The notes beneath the pieces were generated by a model. It ran no database searches. It saw only the letters and a program-made list of their open reading frames with translations, and was not told where the DNA came from. Positions 13,465 through 17,121 of a stretch of 32,068 nucleotides of DNA are shown here, piece by piece. A program made the position numbers and the translations under genes. Where the stretch lies: positions 1 to 32,068 of the forward strand of contig JAKABB010000023.1 of NCBI GenBank assembly GCA_021802045.1, in the 5' to 3' direction. Position 1 is the first letter of the stretch. Each line of letters opens with the position of its first letter. The DNA comes from a bacterium. GTDB lineage: Bacteria > Chloroflexota > Dormibacteria > Aeolococcales > Bog-877.

Positions 13465-14667
<1,203 letters not shown>

Positions 14668-14714
14668 GCCGTCCTCCCGCTCTGGCCGCGATGCCGGCGG
14701 GCACCCTCGGGCGC

Positions 14715-14720
14715 ATTTTA
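14715..14720 (-). promoter_or_regulatory. Candidate -10 element upstream of tyrS
   Basis: TAAAAT on the minus strand, 47 nt upstream of the tyrS ATG and conspicuously AT-rich for this region. No -35 hexamer is found at 16-19 nt. No T-box leader features (specifier loop, antiterminator, terminator) are visible between it and tyrS. Confidence 0.5.
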
Positions 14721-15652
14721 CGGGGCGCGCCGGGTCGGGCCCGGGACCACCACCCGGGGCCGCAATCGCGTTCGCCCTCCGCCATCCGGACCGCCACGAG
14801 GCGCTGATGGGGTCAAGCCTTCTCGACTGGTCCCCCACCACGACCAGGACTGGGGGCAGGGTCGTTGGCCGTCAGCGAGCAGATGGCCCATCTCTCATGC
14901 GCCGCGACAGCGCGAACTACCTGCGGGCCTGACGTGGGATGCCATTGCTGGCCAGGACGAGATCGCGGGTCGCCCCTGGAGCTTCCTGGAGTCGGCTGGA
15001 CGCGAAGGTCAAAGGGCTGAGCGCCCAGCGACGAGAGCCCCGAGCGTCCCGTCGGGGGGAGTGACTGCTCACTCCCTTTCGCGGTCCCCGTCCGGCTCAT
15101 GAACCCGGGCCCGGCCCGGGTCTGGTTCCCTGAGAGGCTGGGGAGGTTCGGGAGCCGGCTCCGGCTCGGCCTCCTGGGCCGAGCCGCGGTGGCCATGGCG
15201 GTCTGCCCCAGGAGGGTGGTGACGGCCACACTCGGGTGGGCCGCGGCCCGCGGGCCGCGCGCGCCGACCAGACGGCCGCCGTGTCCCCGGGCGAGGTGCC
15301 CACGCTGCCATGTTCGGTGATCACCCCCGCGGTCTCCCGGGCCCGGGGTACCTCCACGCAGCCGGTCGGTCGGCCAGCGCCAGCCACAGACCAGCATCTC
15401 GGCGACGGTCTTGCGCCGGGCCCGGTGGAGGCGCTGGGGGTGGTGAGGTCGAGGGCCGCGGGGTTCTCGGGGTCCCCCACCCGGTCGTGGTCCCGCTGGC
15501 CACCAGCTCGCCCGGGAGCTCCCCACGGCCCGTCTGGCGGCCCGGGCGCACCGGTTGCGGTCGGCGCCGTCGGCCCAGGTGGTCGCCTCGAGTCGCTGGG
15601 CGGTGCGGCGGCAACGGCCACCGCGGCGCCCGTGAGGACCGACACTGCCCGC
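14721..15652. other. About 0.9 kb with no supported gene
   Basis: No reading frame on either strand gives a recognisable protein or has a good ribosome-binding site. Positions 14811-15056 look less GC-rich than the neighbouring genes. A perfect 8-bp inverted repeat lies at 15057-15076. A short minus-strand reading at 15312-15268 resembles a terpene-cyclase motif, without a usable frame around it. The stretch may be an eroded gene or insertion. Confidence 0.55.
15057..15079 (+). repeat. 8-bp perfect inverted repeat with short T-run
   Basis: GGGAGTGA, a 4-nt loop, then TCACTCCC, followed by TTT on the plus strand. It can act as a weak intrinsic terminator on the plus strand or as a two-fold symmetric operator. 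Nothing nearby is known to use it. Confidence 0.5.
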
Positions 15653-15680
15653 TTGACAGACGCCGGGGCGGTGCTACAGT
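15653..15680 (+). promoter_or_regulatory. Strong sigma70-type promoter of the structured RNA
   Basis: A perfect -35 TTGACA at 15653-15658 is followed, after 16 nt, by TACAGT at 15675-15680. It is one of only two sites I found in the window with both a perfect -35 and a good -10. The predicted start is near 15687. Confidence 0.85.
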
Positions 15681-15725
15681 GAGGGTACGGATCCGGTTCG
15701 GAATTGGACAGGAGGTTTCCATCCA

Positions 15726-15770
15726 GTGCGGACCGTATGGCAGCGTCTGAGGTACTCCCGGGCGGAGTAG
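15726..15770 (+). CDS. Possible 14-residue leader peptide inside the RNA
   Basis: A GTG at 15726 opens a frame reading MRTVWQRLRYSRAE and stops at TAG 15768-15770. A full AGGAGG lies at 15710-15715, 10 nt upstream, about 25 nt into the transcript. The last five codons and the T of the stop lie within hairpin TACTCC/GGAGTA (15753-15769), so a translating ribosome would melt that hairpin. It may instead be a chance frame in an untranslated RNA. Confidence 0.4.
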   Translation: MRTVWQRLRYSRAE

Positions 15771-15915
15771 GCGGCCCCCCCGGAGCTGGAGCTCTCGGTC
15801 GTGGTGCGTCGCGGGACGTGTCGCACACAAAGCTCCGGGATGGGGAACGGAATACGCGCCGCGAGTTGAATCCGGCTGATCCGCCGGATGCCGGAACACC
15901 ATACCGGTTGTACGA

Positions 15916-15946
15916 GAGGCCCACCCACTGCGGTGGGCCTCTTTTT
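15916..15946 (+). terminator. Intrinsic terminator of the structured RNA
   Basis: A perfect 10-bp stem GAGGCCCACC / GGTGGGCCTC with a 6-nt loop, followed by five Ts (15942-15946). It ends 4 nt before the mpg stop codon, which lies on the opposite strand. In the minus direction the hairpin has no U-tract after it. Confidence 0.95.
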
Positions 15947-15950
15947 CGTG

Positions 15951-16553
15951 TCAGCCCAGGCGGCCCGCGGGGGCCGCTGCCCGGGCAGCCCTGGGACCGG
16001 AGACGGACCCGCTGGCCGGGTCGAACCAGCGCAGCGCCCGAGGGTCCGCGACCCCGATCCGGGGCGTCGTCGCCACCGGCCCCCGGACGGCGGGGCCCGT
16101 CGTGATCCAAAGGCACCCCGGTCCCGCCCGGCAGAGGTCGGCGCGATCGTGGTGCCGGCTGATGCCGAAGGCGCGGCAGAGCCGGCCCGGGCCATCGGCC
16201 CGCGGGTAGGCCCCGGGCGGCAGCGCCTCCACCTCCACGGCCCGCACCAGCACCGCCATCGGGTCTCCGGCCGCGCCGGTGACGACGTTGAAGCAGTCGT
16301 GGAGCCCGTAGATCCGGTAGACGTAGGCGTGGCCTGGGGGGCCGAACATGGGGGCATTGCGCGCGGTCAGGCCGCGCGCGGCGTGGGACGCCGGGTCGTC
16401 CCGGCCCAGATAGGCCTCCACCTCCACGATCCGGCCGACGCACAACCCCTGGGGACCGGCGTGGAGCAGGCGGCAGCCCAGCAGGTCTCGAGCCACGGCC
16501 GGGCTGGGCCGATCGTAGAAGGCCCGCGGGAGCGGGTGGCGGGCCGGGGGCAT
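15951..16553 (-). CDS. mpg: 3-methyladenine (alkyladenine) DNA glycosylase, AAG/Mpg type
   Basis: Removes alkylated and deaminated purines to start base excision repair. It has 200 residues. Family segments are seen in order: FYDRPSPAVARDLLGCRLLH (about 12-31), the catalytic-site strand VEVEAYLGRDDPASHAARG (about 43-61, with the catalytic Glu) and AYVYRIYGLHDCFNVV (about 75-90). CRAFGISR follows further on. The C-terminal tail after about 178 is low-complexity Ala/Gly/Arg. The ATG at 16553 lies 19 nt after the cvpA-like stop, so it is probably the last gene of the thrS-to-mpg operon. It ends tail to tail with the structured RNA, 4 nt from its terminator. Confidence 0.93.
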   Translation of the reverse strand: MPPARHPLPRAFYDRPSPAVARDLLGCRLLHAGPQGLCVGRIVEVEAYLGRDDPASHAARGLTARNAPMFGPPGHAYVYRIYGLHDCFNVVTGAAGDPMAVLVRAVEVEALPPGAYPRADGPGRLCRAFGISRHHDRADLCRAGPGCLWITTGPAVRGPVATTPRIGVADPRALRWFDPASGSVSGPRAARAAAPAGRLG

Positions 16554-16572
16554 GGCGGCCGGCGGCCGCCCC

Positions 16573-17121
16573 TCAGCCGTCGACGCGGCCGAGGAGCAGC
16601 GGGAGTTCGGCGGGCAGGGCGTACCGCATCACCGACCGGGTGAAGGCGCCCCCGCCCAGAATCGGCTGGGCCAATGGCGAGCTGTGCACGGCCGAGGCGA
16701 CCAGCACCCGGCTCGGTGGCAGCAGGCCGCCCCCGGCGGACGCCGCCCCGACCGCCAGGGCCACGGTGATCCAGGTCCCGCACACGAGGAAGGCGGACAG
16801 GCCGCCGGCCACGAGTCCCAGGACCCGGTCCCCGGCGACCACCAGCAACCGGCGCAGCTGGTCCCGGTACAGGTAGGTGATGATCTCGCCGATCACCCAC
16901 CCGAGCAACCCCAGGCCGCAGACGGTGATCCCCGACCAGTACAGCGGGTCCAGCCCGAAGTCCCGCCCGAAGAAGCTGGTGCCGGCGGTGGCCCCTCCCA
17001 GGAGCGTGCCGCCGTAGAAGAAGGCGAAGGGCAGGAGGCGGCGGAGCAGTCCGAAGCGCCAGCCGCAGTAGAGGCTGACCGCGAAGACGACCACGATCAC
17101 GACCCCGATGATGAAGCTCAT
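16573..17121 (-). CDS. CvpA-family integral membrane protein
   Basis: A 182-residue protein with about four hydrophobic segments (about 2-18, 28-47, 60-83, 100-127). It matches the general pattern of the CvpA/colicin-V-production family: short N-terminal TM, a Gly-rich second helix and a third helix. Homologues are needed for colicin V export or for envelope stress resistance, but the molecular role is not settled. The ATG at 17121 overlaps the pheT stop as ATGA, so it is translationally coupled to pheT. CvpA-like genes commonly follow pheT in Gram-positive bacteria. The family assignment is by topology and context rather than a diagnostic motif. Confidence 0.7.
   Translation of the reverse strand: MSFIIGVVIVVVFAVSLYCGWRFGLLRRLLPFAFFYGGTLLGGATAGTSFFGRDFGLDPLYWSGITVCGLGLLGWVIGEIITYLYRDQLRRLLVVAGDRVLGLVAGGLSAFLVCGTWITVALAVGAASAGGGLLPPSRVLVASAVHSSPLAQPILGGGAFTRSVMRYALPAELPLLLGRVDG

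Follow-up and report, generated by a model that had tools for sequence, protein, structure and literature searches.

A putative dual-function RNA gene with a conserved mini-ORF beside mpg in Candidatus Dormibacterota

What is encoded between tyrS and mpg, where a strong promoter and an intrinsic terminator enclose about 260 nt? The question arises from the window, that is, the whole stretch of 32,068 nucleotides that was analysed (contig JAKABB010000023.1). The first-pass annotation, made from the letters of the window alone, had read the element as a purely structured RNA. Its structure and discreteness were upheld by comparison with relatives, but the reading as a purely structured RNA was incomplete, since its best conserved part is an ORF of 14-16 codons with a Shine-Dalgarno sequence. 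This conserved ORF (15726-15770) had been missed, and it is what is new with respect to the earlier reading. The comparison indicates that a small gene standing by itself in the window specifies a folded RNA and, within it, a conserved 14-residue peptide; the gene is about 260 nt long here and about 210-350 nt long among relatives (Table 1). As it occurs in essentially all genomes examined from one order of uncultured soil bacteria and fits no known RNA family, we regard it as a real, previously undescribed RNA with a putative function.

Table 1. Features of the element, in positions of the window
Feature	Position	Strand	Description
Promoter	15653..15680	+	-35 TTGACA 15653-15658; 16-nt spacer; -10 TACAGT 15675-15680; extended TG before -10
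Shine-Dalgarno	15710..15715	+	AGGAGG, 10 nt ahead of start codon; from sequence and alignment A4
Mini-ORF	15726..15770	+	GTG start, TAG stop, 14 aa VRTVWQRLRYSRAE; conserved peptide in all copies
P1 5' strand	15775..15787	+	CCCC + CCCGGAGCT; conserved GCCC motif starts 6 nt past Glu codon
Variable domain inside P1	15788..15830	+	elsewhere short loop to well over 100 nt
P1 3' strand	15831..15845	+	AGCTCCGGG, AT bulge, GGGG
P4 hairpin	15870..15889	+	ATCCGGC-TGATCC-GCCGGAT; five core pairs formed in 17/17 family-1 rows, one with compensatory change
P5 hairpin	15890..15908	+	GCCGG...CCGGT; from alignments and folds
Intrinsic terminator	15914..15946	+	stem-loop 15914-15943: 12 pairs, 8 G-C, loop 6, T-run

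A predicted discrete transcription unit outside the known RNA families

The TTGACA-N16-TACAGT promoter was found as the first-pass annotation had claimed, and no other sigma-70-like site occurs within 14600-16600 (shuffles lead one to expect 0.0). In the sequences that precede 47 distinct copies, the top sigma-70 score averaged 8.4 of 12, against 5.3 in shuffles, and reached at least 9 in 60% of the copies as compared to 1% of shuffles, with the -10 end usually lying 38-50 nt ahead of the start codon. The strong terminator described at the other end was likewise present, with its 12 pairs and T-run at 15914-15943, and such a terminator closes every complete copy, 120-247 nt past the stop codon. 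As in dual-function small RNAs, the transcript would thus have its own promoter and terminator and serve no downstream gene.

A search against Rfam had been proposed, and no family of Rfam 15 reached its gathering score in the window; permissive thresholds added just chance matches at the element. The statement that it is not RNase P RNA, tmRNA, SRP RNA or a T-box agreed with the lack of any covariance-model match to these in the window, and tmRNA, RNase P RNA and SRP RNA were each located elsewhere in every genome tested. When 18 loci were searched with Rfam, T-box included, the only match was a riboswitch of the c-di-GMP-I-GGC family, in the vicinity of the third copy in one genome (G025), and none fell at the element. 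6S RNA (RF00013) did not match at the element either. Sub-threshold 6S RNA matches of about 40 bits (gathering 46.4) were seen at G008:C47:212733-212845 and G004:C46:5783-5895, which possibly represent a divergent 6S RNA of the order. Our literature search found no paper joining Dormibacterota and small RNA.

We examined 50 genomes, all of them MAGs, of the window's order in Candidatus Dormibacterota; profile E-values are per genome, and the counts treat related sequences as separate. The first BLASTN matches in relatives were short and confined to the 5' half of the element. It was found in 43 of the 50 genomes, nearly always as one copy, with a profile built on its 5' part (R1). Further copies came from a second profile (R2, in G020), from the ORF beside mpg (G035) and from reading the locus (G021, G028), so that 47 of the 50 genomes carry the element. 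It was not found in the remaining three assemblies (G009, G032, G040), which are also without detectable mpg, and the locus may therefore be missing from them. In other families of the class we found no convincing copy; those weak matches there and in the wider phylum that were inspected proved to be coding or repeat sequence, or lacked the element. An exact degenerate pattern run over 84,980 named genomes hit 79 places. All matches with an ORF ending in RAE or RAEx plus stop belonged to Dormibacterota or to similar unnamed or Chloroflexi bins, and the other matches, without an ORF ending at RAE*, were judged to be chance. Named carriers are Candidatus Dormiibacterota (ranked as a phylum by NCBI), Aeolococcus or Changshengia bins, and some Chloroflexi bins.

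Collection of homologues bore out the expected conservation of the element between tyrS/yebC and mpg. On one flank lie ruvC, yebC and mostly tyrS, on the other mpg, cvpA and pheT, all on the minus strand; in the window, too, no protein gene follows on the strand of the element, as the annotation had said. The element is thus convergent to mpg, and no same-strand downstream gene recurs consistently across relatives, for which reason it is not an ordinary leader. This bears on a cis-acting attenuator, in which translation of the leader peptide would control a downstream gene. A leader peptide, a stem and a terminator are indeed the parts of an attenuator, and a few copies do have a same-strand neighbour: tyrS after L078, and a membrane-protein ORF after L206 and L210, which we take to be DedA-like from reading its translation. 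However, these neighbours are unrelated to each other, and almost every genome has its following genes on the opposite strand, which makes such a leader improbable. With its 14 codons the gene escapes gene callers, and it escapes Rfam as well, yet it occupies one fixed place in essentially every examined genome of the uncultured order.

Some genomes depart from the single copy. G025 has three divergent copies (L078, L095 and L211, on contigs C194, C4 and C196) and G041 has two. The riboswitch mentioned above (RF03167, 73.5 bits) lies at L211:3307-3381 (+), and the third copy of G025 follows about 0.9 kb downstream.

A mini-ORF conserved as protein

The GGAGG of the Shine-Dalgarno sequence is kept in nearly all copies (alignment A4), and the start codon is also conserved. 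The ORF is 14-16 codons long across copies and its peptide follows the consensus MRTVWxxLRHxRAE(G/R), as seen in MRTVWSFLRHTRAE, VRTVWRYLRHTRAE, MRAVWTRLRHTRAE and MRTVWQRLRHGRAEG of relatives beside VRTVWQRLRYSRAE of the window. Among 36 distinct ORFs, pN/pS was 0.44 for the reading frame of the peptide, as against 1.2 and 1.7 for the two alternative frames, and none of 300 column shuffles gave a value as low. The core residue Trp-4 was exchanged only for Tyr or Phe, and Arg-8 and Ala-12 were invariant. These figures indicate that the mini-ORF is under purifying selection as protein, and this selection, together with the conserved Shine-Dalgarno sequence, points to a translated ORF of the kind found in dual-function small RNAs. 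They also make it scarcely credible that the element is a purely structural non-coding RNA in which the ORF is fortuitous or a mere RNA motif. That explanation would account for the several conserved, covarying hairpins, but neither for a pN/pS that is low in the coding frame alone nor for the conserved Shine-Dalgarno sequence and start codon.

A type I toxin-antitoxin locus, with the short ORF as the toxin, would equally place a short ORF within a structured, terminated RNA. The peptide, however, is charged and Arg-rich rather than a hydrophobic membrane peptide, a consensus scan gave no opposing promoter, and mobile toxin modules would hardly be expected to occur, as the element does, at about one syntenic copy per genome in 47 of 50 genomes; we therefore hold a toxin to be highly improbable.

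Arginine accounts for 3-5 of the 14-16 codons, and these are skewed to the rare AGG (26% vs 5% in neighbouring genes) and away from CGC (10% vs 39%), although they form no run such as amino-acid attenuators have. The skew is only suggestive, because related sequences are not independent and yet were counted as if they were.

Individual copies depart from the usual ORF. In two genomes of one genus (L206, about 215-323; L210, about 398-505) the N-terminus is extended to give an ORF of about 35 aa, with the C-terminus and P1 retained. L084:5054-5116 (G033) has lost the usual stop, and its ORF continues beyond the Glu for six residues and so enters P1, which still starts 7 nt from the Glu codon. 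Three pairings that might mask the Shine-Dalgarno sequence were rejected. A hairpin of CAGACGG with CCGUCUG is common, but not above randomised sequences (mean z -0.5), and shows no covariation; pairing with the P4 loop (UCCG), judged by eye, is missing in L061 and L067; and pairing with the terminator tail, from RNAalifold, was dropped as probably spurious.

A stem at fixed distance from the ORF, and covarying hairpins

The perfect 9-bp long-range helix noted earlier, 15779-15787 (CCCGGAGCT) with 15831-15839 (AGCTCCGGG), was seen again in the centroid and MEA folds of the window; it is P1, the stem that starts directly behind the mini-ORF. P1 has the beginning of its GCCC 6 or 7 nt past the conserved Glu/Asp codon in every one of 43 distinct sequences. 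The stop codon itself moves among these 43, following the Glu/Asp directly in 16, one residue later in 26 and six residues later in L084, so that all copies but one terminate translation no more than about one codon from the Glu. The spacing holds both in L084, where the stop is lost, and in L210, with its longer N-terminus. At 6-7 nt a stem meets the ribosome that is decoding the codon in question, as in ribosome-pausing and frameshift-stimulating stems, the typical spacing of which is 5-9 nt. The stem of the element resembles these in its distance from the conserved codon; unlike frameshift elements, no conserved shifted frame follows the ORF, and a programmed frameshift was rejected on this ground.

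With the body folded alone, 75% of 32 diverse copies, but 20% of shuffles, formed a P1 of 11 or more pairs. A weaker test, which took the energy of the duplex between the first 15 nt and the remainder, gave a mean z of -1.5 over 46 copies. The outer GCCC/GGGC hardly varies, and the inner part differs between lineages, for example GCCCAGTTGG/CCAACTGGGC in L210, GCCCCGGTCGAC/GTCGACCAGTGGGC in L078 and GCCCCGACCACC/GGATGGTCTGGGGC in L095. A small alignment restricted to three P1 strands yielded nothing. Part of the P1 pairing is expected by chance in such GC-rich sequences.

The window copy on its own folded only mildly better than its shuffles (z -1.75; 12 of 200 shuffles as good), and it is therefore the comparative evidence that carries conviction. 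We aligned two families separately (A2 and A3), with P1, (P3), P4, P5 and the terminator as the structure. Paired cells amounted to 95.8% in both alignments, as against 33-54% in slid controls. Cells changed on both sides numbered 28 in A2, against 6.5 in shuffles (none of 500 as high), and 12 in A3, against 4.2. The covariation proposed as a check thus appeared on shuffle testing in the homologues of both families; much of it sits in P4, P5 and the terminator, the stem of the last showing compensatory change at 6 of 9 pairs in family 1. Together with the shared locus, these helices substantiate the discrete, structured promoter-to-terminator RNA that had been suggested, with the exception of a possible closing stem joining its two ends, which is unsupported and not conserved. 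The second element type has a different set of 3' hairpins.

The main rival to a role for the RNA is a microprotein gene, whose product would be the peptide of 14-16 aa, with the hairpins serving as a 3' UTR that stabilises a very short mRNA. Such a gene with a protective UTR would account for much of what was seen: conservation is highest in the ORF, which is under purifying selection, whereas the sequence behind it varies in length and letters but keeps its hairpins and terminator. We nevertheless think it somewhat unlikely, since none of the 43 distinct sequences departs from the exact distance of 6-7 nt between Glu and P1, not even those with a displaced stop, and several hairpins covary beyond the needs of a loose protective UTR.

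A possible attenuator without an operon

We favour, tentatively and at somewhat short of an even chance, a stand-alone dual-function RNA whose fold would be gated by the ribosome finishing the mini-ORF and which would act in trans like a freed attenuator. Comparison provides the promoter, the selection on the ORF, the P1 geometry, the terminator, the conservation and the synteny; the ribosome gating and the role in trans are what we infer. Transcription from the promoter would yield an RNA in which a short 5' UTR and a strong Shine-Dalgarno sequence precede an ORF of 14-16 codons that encodes an Arg/Trp peptide; the intrinsic terminator would end this RNA with no gene consistently served downstream. 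As P1 starts 6-7 nt past the Glu codon, a ribosome on the last codons would run into P1 and hold it open while there; upon its release P1 would close and the RNA could adopt the hairpin fold. Translation, through its speed, pausing at the Arg codons or the end of the peptide, may thereby switch the RNA between two states. The folded RNA, the peptide or both might then act in trans.

The closest analogue appears to be rnTrpL, a freed trp attenuator, which is reportedly a short terminated RNA with a Shine-Dalgarno sequence and, ahead of its stem-loops, an ORF for a 14-aa peptide. The element shares this architecture; it differs in being its own gene, with neither a biosynthetic operon downstream nor a run of Trp codons. 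In Sinorhizobium meliloti, rnTrpL is an attenuator RNA whose leader peptide, peTrpL, acts in trans (PMC7298713), and this is how the RNA of the element, its peptide or both may act.

Like SgrS/SgrT, Spot 42/SpfP and the dual-function RNA VcdRP (PMC8672173), the element has an independent promoter and terminator and a small ORF in an RNA of regulatory size. In contrast to them, its ORF abuts a stem at fixed distance and its lineage is unrelated. As for base-pairing with target mRNAs in trans, we recognised no conserved single-stranded seed, and none common to the 3' parts of the two families; the fast 3' divergence would fit poorly with one conserved target site. Comparative genomics has also found conserved intergenic sORF/uORF motifs, labelled sORF mainly when no structure beyond the terminator remained (PMC6429828). 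The element resembles these in being intergenic, with a Shine-Dalgarno sequence, a short conserved ORF, an independent gene context and, as is sometimes the case there, RNA structure. It departs from the sORFs in that several of its helices covary and its stem keeps an exact spacing to the ORF.

In a bolder form, which we consider unlikely, the element would be a free-standing translation sensor, with mini-ORF and stem reading the behaviour of the ribosome at the last codons and setting accordingly the state in which the RNA acts in trans; one bacterial order would thus have fixed an attenuator that has no operon. Attenuator-like parts can, on this evidence, occur without an operon, and the exact spacing of ORF and stem offers a testable case of messenger and structured RNA in one molecule.

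The surroundings of the element in the window are also of note. Nearly 1 kb (14700-15650) separates tyrS from the element, which is unusual in so compact a contig, and the two ORFs that overlap here, 15236-15682 (+) and 15321-15902 (-), are without a Pfam match.
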